Source: an uncultured Prolixibacteraceae bacterium (GTDB lineage: Bacteria; Bacteroidota; Bacteroidia; Bacteroidales; Prolixibacteraceae). Taken from it: 64,000 nucleotides of DNA. A program made the position numbers and the translations under genes. The notes under the pieces are model-generated. The model was not told the DNA's origin, ran no database searches, and saw only the letters and a list, made by a program, of their open reading frames with translations. Where the stretch lies: NCBI GenBank assembly GCA_913063265.1, contig CAJXZG010000015.1, forward strand, positions 1 through 64,000. Direction: 5' to 3'. Position 1 is the first letter of the stretch. Every line of letters begins with the position of its first letter. This document shows, one piece after another, positions 30,443 through 38,555 of the stretch.

Positions 30443-31105
30443 ATGAGTTTTGACCAAAAACAATTGGAAAAAGCATTTTACAAAGATGGCTTTAGTCTGG
30501 GCATGGAAGCGGTGCAAGGAGGAATATCCCAACAATCTTTATTTATTGCACTAAATAAAATGTACAGGGCCATCGATGATTTTATTGACAGTTTAACGGT
30601 TTACGCACAACAACAAGGCCAAAAACTAGACTGTAAAAAAGGATGCGAATGGTGTTGCCATCAACCAATATATGCTTTGTCATACGAAATGCAATATCTG
30701 AATGCCTTTATAAAGGATAATTTTAACAAAAGCGACCTGAAGCAAATTAAAAACCGGGCTGAAATTAAAAATAACAAATTCAAAAAATTGGCAGGCGATT
30801 CCCTGCTAAATGCCAAACATCCATGCCCCCTGCTGGAGAATGGCACCTGCATAGCCTATAATGCCAGGCCAATGGCTTGTCGAATTTATCTTTCGACTAA
30901 TGTGAAATCGTGTATTGCTTTTTACAAGAATCCTGAAAATGAGAAAAGCATTCCTGCCCTTCTGGACTTCCCCCTAAAAGCAGGAAAAATGATGAATGAA
31001 GGATTTAAAGCAGCCTTAAAAACAGGTGGATTATCAACTGTTGAATTTCGAATTGAAGAAATTTTACTTGTTCCTCCGGCTAAAGCAATGGGTAAGGTCA
31101 CTTAA
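30443..31105 (+). CDS. YkgJ family cysteine-cluster protein
   Basis: This 220-residue cytoplasmic protein has the YkgJ pattern of conserved cysteines: CKKGCEWCC near 54-62, then HPCPLLENGTCIAYNARPMACR near 119-140. The family is thought to bind Fe-S or zinc; its function is not established. It converges with the thioesterase gene, overlapping it by eight bases at the 3' ends. Confidence 0.87.
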   Translation: MSFDQKQLEKAFYKDGFSLGMEAVQGGISQQSLFIALNKMYRAIDDFIDSLTVYAQQQGQKLDCKKGCEWCCHQPIYALSYEMQYLNAFIKDNFNKSDLKQIKNRAEIKNNKFKKLAGDSLLNAKHPCPLLENGTCIAYNARPMACRIYLSTNVKSCIAFYKNPENEKSIPALLDFPLKAGKMMNEGFKAALKTGGLSTVEFRIEEILLVPPAKAMGKVT

Positions 31106-31529
31106 CCTTTTCTTCAGGAACATTTATTCCGGCCAATTTAAACTTGTCAAGCAAAATTTCATGAGGCAAAGGTCTGCCATCTTTAGTTAAAACTGCTGTA
31201 ATTTTTGCTTTAACCATCAATTGGTTATCCCTTTTTCTTATTATTTGCTGATTAAAAATCACACGCAGTCGTCCTTGTTTTCCAATTTTCAATTTCACCA
31301 CAAAATCATCGCCCGGTCGTAATGGAAACTTGTAATCCAGTTCGGCCCGGATTACCACTGCATCAATACCCTGGTTATGCAATTCAGCAAAATCCAATCC
31401 GACGGAATTTAAAAATTTATGCCGACAGTGCTCCAGGTAATTTTGGTATACAGCATTATTGACAATTCCCTGCAAATCACACTCATAATCCCTAACCTGC
31501 AGTTCCAACTCAAAATCAAATTCCTTCAT
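31098..31529 (-). CDS. Acyl-CoA thioesterase (YbgC/4HBT hot-dog family)
   Basis: The 143-residue protein is a single hot-dog domain with the 4HBT motif VRDYECDLQGIVNNAVYQNYLE near 12-33, where the Asp-x-x-G-x-V-x-x-x-x-Y pattern marks the active site. It hydrolyses acyl-CoA thioesters; chain specificity is not readable. It is followed, upstream on the same strand, by a CoA-binding protein gene seven bases away, so the two are likely co-transcribed. Confidence 0.92.
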   Translation of the reverse strand: MKEFDFELELQVRDYECDLQGIVNNAVYQNYLEHCRHKFLNSVGLDFAELHNQGIDAVVIRAELDYKFPLRPGDDFVVKLKIGKQGRLRVIFNQQIIRKRDNQLMVKAKITAVLTKDGRPLPHEILLDKFKLAGINVPEEKVK

Positions 31530-32077: not shown

Positions 32078-32692
32078 CTATTTAATTATAAAATCAAGCA
32101 GCTTTTTATCTTCCAGATATCCTTCCAGACGATCTCCTATTTTTATCGGTCCAACACCTGCAGGGGTACCCGTATATATTAAATCTCCTATTTTCAAAGT
32201 TACGTATTTCGACACATAAGAAATAATTTCGTCGAAACTAAAAATCATCAATTCCGATCTTCCATTTTGTACTTCGTTTCCGTTGATTTTCAATTTAAAT
32301 CCAATATTCTCAGGATCAGGAAACACGGTTTTATCGATAAAAGTATTACTCAAAACAGCTGCCTGATCAAATGCTTTTGACTTCTCCCACGGTAATCCTT
32401 TTTCTTTTAGCTGATTTTGAACATCGCGCGCAGTAAAATCAATCCCAAGTCCGATTTCATCATAATATCGATGAGCAAAACGTTTTTCAATATTTTTCCC
32501 CAACCTGTTTATTTTTATCACAAGTTCAATTTCGTGATGTACTTCTTTTGTCCAGTTTGGAATATAAAAAGGATCGTTATTTCGTAATAATGAAGAATCC
32601 GGTTTCATAAAAAACACAGGTTCTTTCGGAATATCATTTTTTAATTCGTGAACATGTGCCACATAATTTCGGCCAATGCAAATAATTTTCAT
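32078..32692 (-). CDS. Fumarylacetoacetate hydrolase family protein
   Basis: The 204-residue protein is a compact FAH-fold enzyme: CIGRNYVAHVHEL at 5-17, FFMKPDSSLL near 28-37, the metal ligands in HHEIELVI near 52-59, and IYTGTPAGVGPI near 171-182. The short type acts as acylpyruvase, oxaloacetate tautomerase/decarboxylase or isomerase on small 2-oxo acids. No aromatic-degradation genes adjoin it, so a housekeeping oxaloacetate or acylpyruvate role is the more likely reading. Confidence 0.92.
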   Translation of the reverse strand: MKIICIGRNYVAHVHELKNDIPKEPVFFMKPDSSLLRNNDPFYIPNWTKEVHHEIELVIKINRLGKNIEKRFAHRYYDEIGLGIDFTARDVQNQLKEKGLPWEKSKAFDQAAVLSNTFIDKTVFPDPENIGFKLKINGNEVQNGRSELMIFSFDEIISYVSKYVTLKIGDLIYTGTPAGVGPIKIGDRLEGYLEDKKLLDFIIK

Positions 32693-32858: not shown

Positions 32859-33773
32859 TTACTTTTTAATCCGTAAAAACAGGTTAATGCCGAGTGGCTC
32901 CTGAATAACTTCAATTTTCTCTTCCTTGATTCCGGCCTGCACAGCAAAATCTTTTAGTTCATTTGCGGAACGATGATACAGGAACCAGTCACCCATTATT
33001 TCCATACTTCGCCGGGAAGGATTCTCCACATTAAAATTGCCTATTATTATCTCACCACCTTCATTCAGATATTCGTAATATTTTTTCAGAAGATAAACAA
33101 AGTGTTTGCCCTTAAAATAATCAAATAAGCCTGCACTCCAGATTAAATCAAATTTTCGCTCAGGGCTAAACCGGATTACGTTGGCGCTATAAAAAGTCAT
33201 CCTGTCCAAATAATTCCGGTTTTTTGCTTTTGCATAAGCAATTGCTCTTTTATCTAAATCCAGCATTTCAAAAATTAATGAACTGTCTGGATTTTTTTCA
33301 AAAAACTCAAATGTTTCTGTAACCGGTCCACTTCCAAGAATCATCACATCTTTTCGCAAACCCATTGCTTTTTTATTCAGCTCTTCAAATATTTGTACAG
33401 CCAGTTTTTTTCTGTTTCGTACAGCAATTACAGCTCCTGCCGAGTGCAAAAATTCATCCCACTTCCGGTATTTCTCATCGGGACTTACGTAATACTGGTA
33501 AATCTTTTCAATAATAAAAAAATCGCCACTGTATCCGAAAGGTTTGGTATAACAAAATCCAAAAAGTGAATTGGGATTTAAAATCGGACTAATTTTTTTT
33601 CTAAAAACATCTATTTCTTCAGCCTTAACTTTTGATACCACACTGTAAAAAACCGGATAATCTTCCTTATCCGGACCGTTTTTGGCAAAAATTTCCCTGA
33701 TATAGGAATCGACGTCGATGTTCTCGACTTCCATTACAAGGCTGTCGGTGTTGAATTCAGAACTATTCATCAT
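32859..33773 (-). CDS. SAM-dependent methyltransferase, PhcB-like candidate
   Basis: The protein has ~304 residues. The N-terminal part carries KPFGYSGDFFIIEKIY near 77-92, resembling the R-P-x-G-Y-x-G-D-x-x-x-x-x-x-I-Y motif of proteins annotated for 3-hydroxypalmitate methyl ester synthesis (PhcB). The C-terminal part is a class I methyltransferase fold: motif I VMILGSGPVTET near 143-154, an acidic EMLDLD after strand 2, and FDLIWSAGLFDYF near 208-220. There is no signal peptide. The start is an ATG at 33773 or 33770, within ten bases of the preceding gene's stop. As the last gene of a phosphorelay operon it may make a signal molecule; this is an inference from motif and context. Confidence 0.8.
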   Translation of the reverse strand: MMNSSEFNTDSLVMEVENIDVDSYIREIFAKNGPDKEDYPVFYSVVSKVKAEEIDVFRKKISPILNPNSLFGFCYTKPFGYSGDFFIIEKIYQYYVSPDEKYRKWDEFLHSAGAVIAVRNRKKLAVQIFEELNKKAMGLRKDVMILGSGPVTETFEFFEKNPDSSLIFEMLDLDKRAIAYAKAKNRNYLDRMTFYSANVIRFSPERKFDLIWSAGLFDYFKGKHFVYLLKKYYEYLNEGGEIIIGNFNVENPSRRSMEIMGDWFLYHRSANELKDFAVQAGIKEEKIEVIQEPLGINLFLRIKK

Positions 33774-34542
33774 CAACAATTTCACCAAGTTCGCTATTAA
33801 TGTTTTTTATAGCTTCCCTGTATTCTTCGTCAACCGAAATTACACTCATTTTATCTGCAATAATTACTTCCGGAAATTTAACTGCAAATACTTTTACAGT
33901 ATTAATTACAAAAAATTCACTAACCTGAATAAAATATTTTTTAGGGAACATTTCCACCAATTCCTCAAATTTTCTGTCGGTAACAACTTCATCTTCCAAC
34001 AAATGGATTACCGTATTTTCGCCGTCCTTTTCTATAAAATATACTTCATCGATATTTATTTTTTCGAGCCCCTGTGCTGCATGAACAATAATTTGGTTTT
34101 TTTCATGATCTTTTAAATCGAAAAAAGTATTAAACTGTTCGCTCTCCATTTTCAATTTTAAATCGTTGCCAAATTTAAATATGGCTATTTCAATGTTCGT
34201 TTGAAGATCCTTATCAGCAAAAGGTTTGATAATATAACCATAAGGCAGGGCAACTTTGGCTTTATTTACTGTATCAATATCCGCATTAGCTGTTAAATAA
34301 ATAATTGGGACATCATGTTTTTGTGTAATAATTTTAGCCGCTTCTATTCCGGTCATTTCTCCTTTTAGATTTATATCCATCAAAACCAAATCTGGTAGTT
34401 CTTTTTCAACTGCCTCTATTGCCTTTAATCCCGTATCAGCTGTTCCCTGAACGATATAGCCTAAACTTTCCAAACTCTCTTCGATATCTGTTGCGACTAA
34501 AATTTCGTCCTCAACGATTAATATTTTATACTGCTGGCTCAT
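33763..34542 (-). CDS. Response regulator with LytTR-like output domain
   Basis: The 259-residue protein has a receiver domain (1-125) with phospho-acceptor D56 in VLMDINLKG, YLTANAD and YIIKPF, then a linker and a LytTR-like domain (about 155-250). The receiver is of the type usually paired with HisKA_2 kinases, and such a kinase is the preceding gene. In the output domain the normal F-x-R-x-H-R-S-Y-x-V-N motif reads FIQVSEFFVIN, and the later P-x-S-R reads SVDEEY, so key DNA contacts appear lost. It may act by protein contact. It overlaps the long frame of the methyltransferase gene. Confidence 0.88.
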   Translation of the reverse strand: MSQQYKILIVEDEILVATDIEESLESLGYIVQGTADTGLKAIEAVEKELPDLVLMDINLKGEMTGIEAAKIITQKHDVPIIYLTANADIDTVNKAKVALPYGYIIKPFADKDLQTNIEIAIFKFGNDLKLKMESEQFNTFFDLKDHEKNQIIVHAAQGLEKINIDEVYFIEKDGENTVIHLLEDEVVTDRKFEELVEMFPKKYFIQVSEFFVINTVKVFAVKFPEVIIADKMSVISVDEEYREAIKNINSELGEIVDDE

Positions 34543-34577
34543 TTTATGGTTTTTTTTTAAGATTTTTATTAATTGGG

Positions 34578-35654
34578 TTATAATGTTGATTTAAAAGTCA
34601 TTGTAAATTTGGTTCCGTTTGAGAAATCACTTTGCAGTTCCCCTTCAATCTGCTGTACCAGTTTATGCAGGATTTTCATTCCCAGCGACTTGGTTTTTTT
34701 AATATTTACTTCTGCGGGTATTCCTACCCCATCGTCGGCAACGGTTAATACATATTGTTTATCTTCAAGATTATCAAAATGAATACTTATAATTCCTTTT
34801 GTCTTATTTATAAAAGCATATTTAAAGGAATTTGAAATTAATTCATTTATTATTAATCCACATGGAATTGCCAAATCCATTGGAAGATAAGCATCATCAA
34901 TCTGATAATCGAATTTAATTTTGGCCTGTTGATTCGCATAAGTCCTGGCAATATTCCCTGTTAAACTTTTCACATAAGACGAAAACATAATATTTGCAAG
35001 GCTTTTATGATTATAGAGGTTTTCATGAATCAGAGCCATAGAGTGAATCCTGTTCTGGCTTTCCTGCAAAACCTCCTTCAACCGCGGATCATCAATATTC
35101 CTGCTTTGCATGCTTAAAATACTTGAAATAATCTGCATATTGTTTTTCACCCGGTGATGAACTTCCCTTAGTAAAACGTCTTTTTCCTCGAGTGATTTTT
35201 TTAAATATTCTTCGGCTTCCCTTCTTTTTTTCTCTTTTCTTTCGAGCTCCCATTTCATTAAGGTTATGCCCGCAAATTCATCGATTAATGATAAAAGTTT
35301 TTTGGCTTCAACGGGTTTCATAAGGTAGCCGTCGACGCCCAAATGAATGGATTCTACAAAACTGTCTTTCTCACTGTAGGCCGACATCACCACAAATTTC
35401 GCTTCGGGTTCAATTTTCTTGATTTCTTTTACCATTTCCAAACCATTCATTACAGGCATTACCATGTCGGTAATAACCAAATCAGGTTTGTGTTTTCGGT
35501 ACAGCTCCAAACCATGGGAACCATTTTCGGCGATGTATAAATAGTTTACATGCTTCTCCAGAATCCTCCTGTAAAGCTGTCTTATTGTATCATTGTCGTC
35601 AACAAAGAGTACTGAAATATTATACCGTTGTCCAGGATTCTGTTCTCTTATCAT
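34578..35654 (-). CDS. Receiver protein with histidine-kinase (HisKA_2) output domain
   Basis: The 358-residue protein joins a receiver (about 13-130, phospho-acceptor D63 in LVITDMVMP, Lys in LMKPVE) to a coiled coil and a HisKA_2/HATPase kinase: [16 protein letters not shown] with phospho-His about 167, [13 protein letters not shown] (N box) and DDGVGIP. It has no membrane segment. A response regulator with kinase output resembles PhcR of Ralstonia. I start at the ATG at 35654, eight bases after the previous stop; an ATG at 35684 would overlap it. Its likely partner is the LytTR-like regulator next in the operon. Confidence 0.9.
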
Positions 35655-35661
35655 TTTGTGG

Positions 35662-36042
35662 TTATTTATTAAATTGTTTAGCAATTATCTCTCTTAATTT
35701 AATTGCATCAATGGGTTTAAAAATGGTGTCATCACATTTTGACTGAGCAATTTCTTCATATGCATCACCCATTACACTTGCGGTTTGAATTATTATTGGA
35801 ATTTCAGGTTTTATCTCTTTAATACGGCGCGATGCCTCAATTCCGTCAACCACCGGCATTCTTACATCCATTAGTATTACATCAGGTTCATTCCCATTTT
35901 GCACATAGTCAATGGCCTCTTGCCCATTCTCAAGCCAGGAAATATTTGCATTCGTTTTTCTCAATTGAGTTTTTAGAAGTACAAAATTCATTTTTGTATC
36001 ATCCACCACAAGTATATTTTTACCTTCCCAATTATACTCCAT
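35662..36042 (-). CDS. Stand-alone receiver-domain response regulator
   Basis: The 126-residue protein is a lone CheY-like receiver: acidic pair in LVVDD at 11-15, phospho-acceptor D59 in ILMDVRMP, T in IIQTAS and K in IFKPID. It has no output domain, so it probably shuttles phosphate between the upstream membrane kinase and the downstream kinase-linked receiver. Its start overlaps the end of the kinase gene by eleven bases, implying translational coupling. Confidence 0.92.
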
Positions 36043-37534
36043 TATTTGCTAAAACTTTGCTTTTTACAACAACACCTGGTAATGTAAAATAAAACTCAGA
36101 GCCCTCGTTTAACTTACTTTTTACCGAAATTTCACCGCCCATCAAGTTCAAATATGTTTTTGAAATGGCCAGTCCCAGTCCTGTGCTTTCTCTTCCCGAT
36201 GTTCTGCCGACCGTAGCCTGCATAAATCTGTCAAAGATATATTTTTGTGCTTCTTCACTAATTCCAATTCCCGTATCTGTTACTTTAAAGAAAAGTCCAT
36301 CATCCTGAATTGTATAATAAAACTCAATACTTCCCTCATCGGTATATTTACATGCGTTGTTAACAAGATTTATCATTATCTGTTTTAACCTCATCCTGTC
36401 TGTAAATATTAAACAATCATCATCGGCAAGATCGTTTTGATAAGTGAGTTTCAGATTTTTATTTACAACATTGGAATCAACACTGAACATATCGTAAATT
36501 TCCTTGGTTAAGGTATTTAATTCAAATTTCGATTTTTCAATTTTTAAAATTCCAGCTTCAATTTTTGATAAATCAATAATATCGTTTATTAAATTCAGTA
36601 GATGTTCCCCGCTATTTATTATGGTATTGATAAATTCATCAAGTTCTTCTTCACTTTCTGCTTCTTTTAACAGATTGGCAAAACCCAGAATTCCATTCAT
36701 CGGAGTTCTGATTTCGTGACTCATATTGGCTAAAAATGCAGATTTTAGCTTATCCGATTCTTCTGCTTTTTCTTTGGCGGCGATTAACTGTTTTTCAACC
36801 AATGCCCTGTGCTTAACTTCTTCTTTTAATTCCTTGTTTCTTGAGTTTAAAAGTTTAGTCCTGGCTGCAACTTTTTCTTCCAGGTTTTTATTTGCCTGTT
36901 CGATTTGCCGGTTTGTTTCACCAATCTTTACAATCAAATCAAAATTCTGGCGGTTAAAAATTTCCGTACGGTAAGCAGCAAACATACCAATCAGATTTGC
37001 TCCTATAAAAAAGAAACTATTCGAAATAATTATCGTACGATCGATATTCCAGACAATCCCAGCAATAATGTATACAAATATTACGATCCAACTTGCCACA
37101 GATACTGCAAACGACCTAAGTTTAATCAATACAGAACCGGCCAGGAAAACAAGAATTAATCCACTGCTGTAAATTATAACATCAGGCATCATAATCAGCA
37201 TTACAATTATTCCTACTGCTCCAATAAAATATGAAATAAACAACGAGGTTTGCCAGTTGTTTTTAAACTTTTTTGAAAAGGAAAAAAAGAATACTGCCAA
37301 TAAAACTGCAACAACTACTATTCTGATGGAAATAAACAGCTGTAAAAAGTCTTTGGCCACAATACTATCCAGATATCCAAAAAAACCATAGAGAAACGCC
37401 AAAATCAGATATGCAACTCTGGTAGTTTTAAATGAGCGTACAAAATAGTATTCCCTATATTTTTCTTCTCTTTCGTCAGGAAAATTCAGGGTTACCCTAT
37501 GTAACTCATTTGTAAAGTGCGTCCCAAAAATCAT
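36032..37534 (-). CDS. Six-TM membrane histidine kinase
   Basis: The 500-residue protein has six hydrophobic helices (about 39-57, 66-85, 96-116, 119-137, 143-163, 171-189), a coiled coil (200-265), a HisKA domain with H273 in ANMSHEIRTPMNGIL, and a HATPase domain (about 380-490: VNNACKYT, DTGIGI, GLGLAI). There is no large periplasmic sensor, so the ligand is probably lipophilic or sensed within the membrane, as in PhcS/LqsS-type receptors. It is the first gene of the five-gene operon and would start the relay. Confidence 0.9.
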   Translation of the reverse strand: MIFGTHFTNELHRVTLNFPDEREEKYREYYFVRSFKTTRVAYLILAFLYGFFGYLDSIVAKDFLQLFISIRIVVVAVLLAVFFFSFSKKFKNNWQTSLFISYFIGAVGIIVMLIMMPDVIIYSSGLILVFLAGSVLIKLRSFAVSVASWIVIFVYIIAGIVWNIDRTIIISNSFFFIGANLIGMFAAYRTEIFNRQNFDLIVKIGETNRQIEQANKNLEEKVAARTKLLNSRNKELKEEVKHRALVEKQLIAAKEKAEESDKLKSAFLANMSHEIRTPMNGILGFANLLKEAESEEELDEFINTIINSGEHLLNLINDIIDLSKIEAGILKIEKSKFELNTLTKEIYDMFSVDSNVVNKNLKLTYQNDLADDDCLIFTDRMRLKQIMINLVNNACKYTDEGSIEFYYTIQDDGLFFKVTDTGIGISEEAQKYIFDRFMQATVGRTSGRESTGLGLAISKTYLNLMGGEISVKSKLNEGSEFYFTLPGVVVKSKVLANNGV

Positions 37535-37748
37535 AATAAAATTATGAATAAAATACCATCCCTTTTACTTACAAAAAAATATTACACGGAATTCAACTTC
37601 AACTGAAGCTACTCATCAGTTCCATAGTGTGGGTTAGTTAAATAAAGAGGGTAGCCTCAAAGATAAAAAAAATGACCTAAATCCATTCAAAATCACCTAC
37701 TAAACGATAAATTAGAGCCATTCTACATAACCAATATATAGATTGAAT

Positions 37749-38555
37749 CTATTGATTCATCATATTAAGCTTAATCCTGGTTAATACTTTTTTTGTATAA
37801 AGCGGAAATTCGCTATCCATCATCCAACCATAATAACCGGGTTGTTCTTTGAGAACTTTTTCGACCGGCACCCCTTTGTTTTTGCCAAAATTAAATACTT
37901 CTACCCCCTTATCGTTATATACGATTCTTCCAACAAAATCTACATTTTTATCATAAGATGAAAACTCACTTAACTTTTCTATTTCGTTTACAATGGGCTT
38001 CGATTTTACACCTTTTGAGTCCTCAACTTCAGTATTTTCATACATATCAAGTTGAGATTTTAAAACCTCATAAGTTGCTTTTGTATCAGCCATGGCTGAG
38101 TGAGCATCAACCAATTCTTTGCTACAGTAAAACTTATATGCAGCTGAAAGTGTTCGTTTTTCCATTTTATGAAAAATTGCCTGAACATCAACAAATTTAT
38201 GTTTCTTCAAGTCAATATCCACATCGGCACGTAAAAATTCTTCAGCAAGTAATGGAATATCAAATCGGTTTGAATTAAATCCGCAAAGGTCGCAACCTTC
38301 AATAAACTTTGCCAGCGTTTTGGCTACTTCTTTAAAAGTTGGTTTTTCCTTTACATCCTCGTCTTTGATTCCATGAATTTTAGAAACCTCCGGAGGTATT
38401 GGCATTTCAGGATTAATCAACAATAGTTTCTCTTCTTCCGAATTGTCAATATTAATTTTTAAAAGTGCAATTTCAACGATGCGATCAGTTGCAATATTCA
38501 TTCCCGTTGTTTCCAAATCCAGTACAACCAGGGGATTCTTCAAATTAAGTAACAT
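37749..38555 (-). CDS. 3'-5' exonuclease, DEDDh family (DnaQ-like)
   Basis: The 268-residue protein has an N-terminal DEDDh exonuclease domain: ExoI LDLETTG at 13-19, ExoII CGFNSNRFD near 92-100 and ExoIII HSAMADTKAT near 151-160. The C-terminal ~90 residues, with FVGRIVYNDKGVEVFNFGKN, form an additional domain found in Bacteroidota homologues. It removes 3' nucleotides, possibly as a proofreading subunit. It lies 85 bases after dnaN on the same strand, but a terminator-like hairpin lies between them. Confidence 0.9.
   Translation of the reverse strand: MLLNLKNPLVVLDLETTGMNIATDRIVEIALLKINIDNSEEEKLLLINPEMPIPPEVSKIHGIKDEDVKEKPTFKEVAKTLAKFIEGCDLCGFNSNRFDIPLLAEEFLRADVDIDLKKHKFVDVQAIFHKMEKRTLSAAYKFYCSKELVDAHSAMADTKATYEVLKSQLDMYENTEVEDSKGVKSKPIVNEIEKLSEFSSYDKNVDFVGRIVYNDKGVEVFNFGKNKGVPVEKVLKEQPGYYGWMMDSEFPLYTKKVLTRIKLNMMNQ

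Follow-up and report, generated by a model that had tools for sequence, protein, structure and literature searches.

Does a bacterium of the phylum Bacteroidota carry a relative of the Phc quorum-sensing system of Ralstonia and related bacteria, in which a 3-hydroxy fatty-acid methyl ester is sensed by a kinase and the LysR-type regulator PhcA acts downstream? The question is raised by a five-gene operon on the minus strand (positions 32859-37534) of a 64,000-nucleotide stretch of DNA from an uncultured Prolixibacteraceae bacterium (assembly GCA_913063265.1, contig CAJXZG010000015.1, positions 1 to 64,000; hereafter the window). Genes for a six-helix membrane histidine kinase, a lone receiver, a receiver–kinase with a HisKA_2 domain, a receiver with a LytTR-like domain and a methyltransferase (MT) follow one another head to tail, and a first-pass annotation had proposed that they form a phc-like quorum-sensing system. 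We found that this is a real, conserved and modular MT–phosphorelay operon, and that it is not a strict member of the Phc family. Two of its core parts, the sensor and the enzyme domain, appear to be homologous to those of phc; its regulators differ. The best-supported reading, which we consider narrowly probable, is a Phc-like circuit in which the MT makes a methylated lipid-like signal and the kinase reads it.

The coordinates and Pfam domains bear out the genes, order and strand of the first-pass annotation, and the predicted model of the kinase has the six transmembrane helices that it had claimed. Neighbouring genes overlap or lie at most 35 bases apart, within the limit of about 40 bases that had been given. 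Genes 1 and 2 overlap by 11 bases; 7 bases separate genes 2 and 3 if gene 3 starts at the ATG at 35654 (the listed open reading frame (ORF) starts at the TTG at 35684); 35 bases separate genes 3 and 4; and genes 4 and 5 overlap by 11 bases if gene 5 starts at the ATG at 33773. All phospho-acceptors are intact, namely H273 of the kinase, H177 of gene 3 (numbered on the 368-amino-acid (aa) ORF) and Asp 59, 73 and 56 of the receivers.

A methyltransferase related to PhcB

As a reference for phc we used presumed phcBSRQ operons recognised by structure and by agreement with the literature, not the named Ralstonia records. In a genome set from one family, the MT was matched in 11 of 120 genomes, nearly at full length in 8. 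Seven of these eight full-length phc-type loci have the order MT, kinase, receiver–kinase, receiver; L173, the eighth, runs into the end of its contig. We treated the operons as phcBSRQ because their lengths and two residues agree with published features (statements from cited papers refer throughout to the parts of their text that were available). PhcB has 464-468 aa, PhcR 368-374 and PhcQ 336-337 (PMC8578825). The phospho-acceptor of PhcS is H230 (PMC11960443), and a histidine at residue 230, counted from a possible start, is present in three of eight phc-type kinases. R22 of PhcB (PMC6989110) is matched by an arginine at residue 22, counted from the N termini, in the PhcB-type proteins of L171, L173, L174 and L175. 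A phc-type operon with generic annotations also lies on plasmid NZ_CP024936 of Paraburkholderia graminis, encoding an MT of 468 aa, a kinase of 445 and receivers of 134 and 344. This plasmid is typed conjugative, and the third gene of its phcBSRQ-like locus (L129, 5404-9779) encodes the bare 134-aa receiver, with no PhcR kinase part.

Searches of Pfam, NCBIfam and PHROGs returned generic methyltransferase matches for the window MT (in Pfam, Methyltransf_25 barely above its cut-off and Methyltransf_12 under it), and the single sequence had generic matches among PDB sequences. For METHYLTRANSFERASE, a 23-row profile (A2) matched PhcB-type proteins at E = 8.8e-40 in a whole-genome search (G564), and at E = 3e-45 and 2e-42 in a small set. 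The motif KPFGYSGDF, which the first-pass annotation had likened to one in PhcB, has a close counterpart at the same place in PhcB-type proteins (Table 1). An 18-row alignment (A6), inspected by eye, showed K-P-x-G-Y-x-G-D, R, G, D, A-G-L-F-D-Y, N, W and R in common between the two, as well as N-x-x-R-x-x-M-E and G-x-N-x-F, which rhizobial relatives do not have. On the evidence of sequence, the MT and the catalytic half of PhcB-type proteins are homologues.

We placed the enzyme in a 72-row tree, which was built by a quick method with the Shimodaira–Hasegawa-like approximate likelihood ratio test (SH-aLRT) as its sole support measure and contains several long branches. PhcB-type proteins (9 rows) and the window clade (49 rows) were separate, each with an SH-aLRT of 100. 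The window clade is mainly from Bacteroidota, with a few Proteobacteria and one Desulfobacterales row; PhcB groups with other, mostly proteobacterial, MTs at 90. Because the clades are separate, we regard the MT as a cousin of PhcB and not as its orthologue, and this tree rules out strict orthology. The window MT also lacks the N-terminal part that precedes the MT domain in PhcB. The profile search that had been suggested as a check upheld kinship with PhcB, and curated families gave generic matches. The MT was not seen to fall in a clade with a known unrelated substrate. On a plasmid of Enterobacter ludwigii (NZ_CP134637; L130, 6001-6780), a type I polyketide synthase has a related MT at its C terminus, and recombination genes lie near. 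On a Pseudanabaena plasmid (NC_019690; L230, 3926-6545), a distant relative lies downstream of Tn3-type genes, with a HAMP kinase and a response regulator opposite.

The predicted structure of the MT (predicted local distance difference test (pLDDT) 93.7) has a class I fold with a helical cap. Among the 50 listed of 1941 PDB structure matches, mostly generic MTs, it was closest to 3OCJ, with a query TM-score of 0.58 against at most 0.50 for the rest. The sequence match to 3OCJ is weak with profile A4 (E = 0.001, profile positions 102-238 only) and reaches 9.7e-7 with A6. 3OCJ is an ortholog of the fatty-acid methyltransferase FmtB, and the cavity in its crystal most likely holds palmitic acid; overproduction of FmtB raises methyl-ester fatty acids in cells, and wild type and an fmtB deletion mutant did not differ significantly (PMC5426589). 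The likeness to 3OCJ and these findings on FmtB make an acyl substrate plausible.

Another candidate substrate is a protein of the pathway itself, with the MT adapting or tuning the kinase or a receiver in the manner of CheR. The close coupling of the genes and a weak CheR similarity (E = 0.00039, under the Pfam family cut-off) fit this explanation. We nevertheless consider it improbable, as Pfam finds no chemoreceptor domain in the kinase, and the MT is homologous to PhcB-type proteins and has its best TM-score, among the 50 listed matches, with the FmtB ortholog.

A kinase sensor related to that of PhcS

Residues 1-230 of gene 1 are the sole domain of their kind in the window genome at E up to 0.01. 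In a profile–profile comparison they matched PhcS with a probability of 97.8 and E = 6.8e-13. Sensor profile A3 matched all eight intact PhcS proteins (E = 8.6e-14 to 1.6e-6, database size set to 100,000) and gave no score for the truncated L173 kinase. Scored singly with two different profiles, all eight PhcS sequences ranked above 65 genuine multi-transmembrane control stretches. There were initially 69 controls; the four top scorers were contig-truncated partner kinases of the same operons and were removed. Because kinases in which a coiled coil follows the membrane part are scarce among the controls, this ranking may favour PhcS slightly. These comparisons indicate that the membrane sensor of the window kinase is homologous to the PhcS sensor.

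The domain is also remotely similar to MASE8 (PF20968), which 8 of 18 sensor-family members matched at E up to 1 (best 5.5e-6). The window sensor scored 11.7 bits, under the cut-off of 26.2, and P. graminis PhcS matched weakly (0.0044). The predicted model of the window sensor (pLDDT 89.9) has six helices, the last continuing as a long helix, as in MASE8, CqsS–LqsS and adenylyl-cyclase sensors. Its likeness to the ImcA and adenylyl cyclase 9 membrane domains came with E-values of 0.001 or more. The likeness to CqsS and LqsS is by description only. These six-transmembrane quorum receptors have lipophilic ligands, and such a receptor can stand in for a cyclase anchor, conferring regulation by its ligand (PMC4821796).

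In a 98-row sensor tree, the PhcS rows group together on a long branch, and sensors lacking an MT are scattered among those that have one as a partner. The kinases that carry this sensor but have no MT neighbour (L210-L229) include several in same-genus genomes, two of them in G020, where the operon lies elsewhere. These kinases may pick up signals that others produce, or may sense something different.

Conservation of the methyltransferase–kinase pairing

Among 36 other same-genus genomes, 10 had an MT match (E up to 1e-5), and 9 of these 10 fit the window operon; G011 has a divergent MT (42% identity) without a window-type operon. All five genes are whole in six of the nine same-genus loci of this type, including L024, whose receiver–LytTR ORF is short (208 aa), and the other three are cut by contig ends. 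The closest relatives in the survey carry the names Prolixibacteraceae and Draconibacterium. The five-gene grouping is not due to chance, because it is kept in same-genus loci and the link between MT and kinase is kept far beyond the genus.

For the wide survey, we scanned named genomes with a 12-row MT alignment and obtained 148 relatives in 287 candidate stretches. The best 80 and the window make up 81 loci; as these are the best matches only, the survey leans to the window's kind. In 70 of the 81 loci, the MT had a kinase or receiver gene on the same strand and at most 350 bases away. As background we took 236 genes from the same loci, outside the two-component families and five or more positions off; 3 of them had such a neighbour. 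The association of MT homologues with kinases and receivers that the first-pass annotation had asked about therefore does occur. Among the 11 misses, L080, L081, L101, L122 and L110 have a contig-truncated gene bearing the sensor domain, L050 starts at a contig end and L086 has its kinase 472 bases off; L088, L106, L120 and L123 have no adjacent kinase. Three layouts recurred. Layout A, ending in receiver–LytTR and then MT, accounts for 30 loci, its kinase having the receiver either fused or as a separate gene. Layout B, MT followed by kinase, accounts for 37, of which 31 then have a receiver. Layout C, a kinase–receiver followed by MT, was found in 4 loci, and 10 have other layouts.

Beyond the survey, the MT was present in 12 of 395 genomes drawn to sample the phylum, window included. 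Eight loci (L151-L158) came from 7 of the 11 other MT genomes in this sample (G075, G127, G209 and G241 were left out), and in four a hybrid kinase lies beside the MT. Around the gammaproteobacterial member L110, a broader MT profile matched 10 of 369 genomes, L110 included. Loci from eight other matching genomes of this draw (G797 left out) included a full phc-type operon, L145, and L149, where a kinase adjoins on the opposite strand. Across the window's own genome and 60 relatives, an MT match was found in 14 (in G052 a weak one only), the sensor in 19 and both in 12, such that the sensor is present in 12 of 14 genomes with an MT match versus 7 of the 47 others.

These data also bear on whether an unrelated biosynthetic MT simply shares an operon with a phosphorelay. 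Some MTs of the clade stand apart from kinases and the sensor also occurs alone, as coincidence would allow. Set against this are the excess of kinase and receiver neighbours over background genes, the three layouts, and the presence or absence of the whole block at one site (see below), and we consider coincidence very improbable.

Receivers and the LytTR-like domain

In 13 sister operons, a C-terminal receiver fused to the kinase occupies the position of the lone receiver. The lone receiver shares 40-49% identity with these, against 28-36% with other receivers (among the 45 best rows), and by this comparison is a detached hybrid-kinase receiver. Of the 17 LytTR domains encoded by the genome, that of gene 4 scores lowest, with 35 bits against 45 for the one above it. 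An [HN][RK] pair stands at the HRS motif position in 16 of the 17; the window domain has S-E there. This pair is absent from 28 of 29 layout-A proteins that include the stretch (30 with the window, one cut short), the exception being L067. We infer that canonical DNA binding by the LytTR-like domain has been lost; an ordinary DNA-binding LytTR output is disfavoured by the loss of the basic motif. Because this motif is lost, no ordinary DNA-binding output is evident in the operon. Layout B ends in a bare receiver.

Comparison with phc operons

Both the window operon and phc are tight and have an MT with the K-P-x-G-Y-x-G-D motif, a kinase with a probably homologous six-transmembrane sensor, and a receiver–kinase of PhcR layout with no DNA-binding domain (358 aa in the window versus 368-374). 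As in the window operon, where no receiver has an evident ordinary DNA-binding output, PhcR and PhcQ have no DNA-binding domains (PMC8578825). The two also differ. The window MT has about 304 aa, against 464-468 for PhcB, and belongs to another clade. The kinase core reads MSHEIRTP, whereas PhcS-type proteins have LLHE(V/L)NNP, with (L/M)HE(V/L)NNP in all eight. The receiver–kinase has HisKA_2, and its best long match is at E = 1.9e-11 and 20% identity. The window has an extra lone receiver; its last receiver carries a degenerate LytTR-like domain, and the C terminus of PhcQ is uncharacterised; and the MT gene comes last. Strict Phc membership fails because the MT has its own clade, the PhcB N-terminal part is absent and the kinase core is of another type. 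The likeness to phcBSRQ that had been proposed goes further than a shared list of parts, since it holds for the MT and PhcB's catalytic half and for the sensor and PhcS. The accompanying claim of the same parts in a different order is right for the window; another common layout, MT, hybrid kinase, receiver (31 of 81 loci), has broadly the phc order.

The operon L150 (1500-7312) from a Desulfobacterales genome (G456, which also contains L123) encodes, in this order, an MT of 466 aa, two kinases of 451 and 656 aa and a 335-aa receiver protein. The sensor profile from Bacteroidota picks up both kinases (E = 2.4e-9 and 1.2e-75), and the MT aligns almost from end to end with one PhcB-type protein (26% identity, 452 columns, E = 1e-37). 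To judge from these matches, L150 is a bridge between the phc and Bacteroidota types. Inspection by eye suggested a GGDEF-like region in its 335-aa receiver protein.

Signal synthase or output

The main rival to signal synthesis is that the MT is the output of the relay: an unrelated membrane-proximal cue would be sensed, and the relay would switch the MT on or off, which would methylate an envelope lipid, a free fatty acid or another metabolite in the same cell. This fits the missing ordinary DNA-binding outputs and the bare receiver that ends layout B, as well as the receiver–LytTR gene that directly precedes the MT in layout A. FmtB, too, raises methyl fatty acids, and the available text of its description gives it no signalling role (PMC5426589). 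What argues against it is the recurrent pairing of MT and PhcS-type sensor in Bacteroidota, with a related form in phc-type operons and in a Desulfobacterales genome, which is what the signal-synthase reading predicts. We consider the MT as output unlikely, though a serious contender.

Apart from the separate clades of the two enzymes, several further observations weigh against a signal synthase read by its kinase. The MT profile scores the polyketide synthase-terminal MT of the Enterobacter plasmid at 179 bits, above PhcB at 145 (the P. graminis PhcB-type protein) and 135. Phosphoethanolamine MTs match the MT profile better (E = 1.3e-7) than 3OCJ does (E = 0.001), the PhcB-type protein of L145 had no PDB match at E up to 0.01 in a single-sequence search, and in vitro assays of FmtB were negative (PMC5426589). 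Twenty fetched loci carry the sensor without an MT neighbour, L219 having a weak 14-bit MT match nearby, which rules out the sensor as an exclusive MT partner. Conversely, no same-strand kinase adjoins the MT at L088, L106, L120, L123, L028, L142, L143, L152, L153, L154 and L177; some of these loci border a contig end, and at L120, L152 and L153 two-component genes lie at a distance of a few genes. Finally, at L155-L158 (Bacteroidota family f43), an MT of the same clade lies beside large two-receiver membrane kinases that gave no match to the sensor profile even at E = 10, an arrangement that also speaks for the MT as output.

The operon as a discrete block

The operon lies between a DNA polymerase III epsilon-like exonuclease gene and a fumarylacetoacetate-hydrolase-like (FAH-like) gene (Table 1). 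A search for the FAH-like gene gave 30 loci, of which the 27 same-genus loci (window included) were compared. The MT adjoins the FAH-like gene in 8 of the 27. In 17 the site is empty, with the polymerase epsilon-like gene directly beside the FAH-like gene and no operon between; one of these is G020, which carries the operon elsewhere in its genome. In the remaining two (G006 and G022), no polymerase gene was detected in the short stretch compared. Because the same site is occupied in some genomes and empty in others, the operon comes and goes as a block.

A thioesterase-like gene (31098-31529) lies two genes past the FAH-like gene and is near it in 25 of the 27 loci. As it is kept with or without the operon, it is outside the block. 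Upstream of the operon, an alignment of nine sequences (the window and eight relatives) showed no conserved block, and a conserved regulatory motif there was discarded as a candidate.

Table 1. Features of the operon and its flanks in the window
Feature	Coordinates	Strand	Description	Basis or remark
Gene 1	36032..37534	-	Membrane sensor histidine kinase, 500 aa, HisKA and HATPase_c after the membrane part	Pfam; six transmembrane helices predicted; phospho-acceptor H273
Gene 1, sensor part	36845..37534	-	Residues 1-230; six-helix membrane domain, probable PhcS-sensor homologue, remote MASE8 similarity	Profiles, model
Gene 2	35662..36042	-	Lone receiver, 126 aa, probable detached hybrid-kinase receiver domain	Pfam Response_reg
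Gene 3	34578..35684	-	Response_reg, HisKA_2 and HATPase_c, PhcR-like layout, 358 aa from ATG 35654 (ORF open from TTG 35684)	Pfam
Gene 4	33763..34542	-	Receiver and LytTR-like domain, 259 aa, basic motif of ordinary LytTR domains lost	Pfam Response_reg and LytTR
Gene 5	32859..33773	-	Class I S-adenosylmethionine-dependent MT, helical N-terminal cap, about 304 aa (ORF open from TTG 33788)	Pfam, model
KPFGYSGDF motif of MT	33519..33545	-		Same place in PhcB-type proteins: KPLGYAGDY
Upstream intergenic region	37535..37748	-		Between gene 1 and exonuclease gene
Exonuclease gene (flank)	37749..38555	-	DNA polymerase III epsilon-like	Adjoins FAH-like gene directly in 17/27 same-genus loci, operon not at site
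FAH-like gene (other flank)	32078..32692	-	Fumarylacetoacetate-hydrolase-like	With exonuclease gene marks block site

Discussion

If the signal-synthase reading is right, the MT would make a methylated lipid-like product, most likely a methyl ester of the fatty-acid type, and the PhcS-like six-helix sensor of the kinase would respond to this product or to a relative of it. Phosphate would then run from the kinase to the lone receiver, the receiver–kinase or both, and on to the receiver–LytTR-like protein. That protein, whose gene overlaps the MT gene, would be likeliest to act by protein contact, perhaps with the MT itself, which would amount to feedback on signal synthesis. In the phc system, PhcQ affects production of the signal (PMC6989110). 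The gene order, its conservation as a unit, the homologies of MT and sensor, the intact phospho-sites and the lost LytTR basic motif are observed; the identity of the substrate, the reading of the MT product by the kinase, the direction of the phosphate and any signalling between cells are what we infer.

The phc gene cluster has been described as having a restricted distribution in Betaproteobacteria (PMC10653808). A literature search by title and the start of the abstract, with most subscription journals outside its scope, found no description of a phc-like system in Bacteroidota. We tentatively propose that cell–cell signalling by methylated lipid-like signals may be widespread in this phylum, based on a PhcS-type sensor and an MT that is a cousin of PhcB, in a five-gene block whose receivers have lost, or never had, DNA-binding outputs. 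As the block ends in receivers without such outputs, the making of the signal may itself be what is regulated. Should this proposal be right, the operon would show that a sensor–synthase pair can be kept while the regulators are exchanged, and it would provide a concrete synthase–receptor pair with which to test lipid-based signalling in Bacteroidota. The pairing of an MT with a PhcS-related sensor suggests that these bacteria may sense, and perhaps talk with, methylated lipids.

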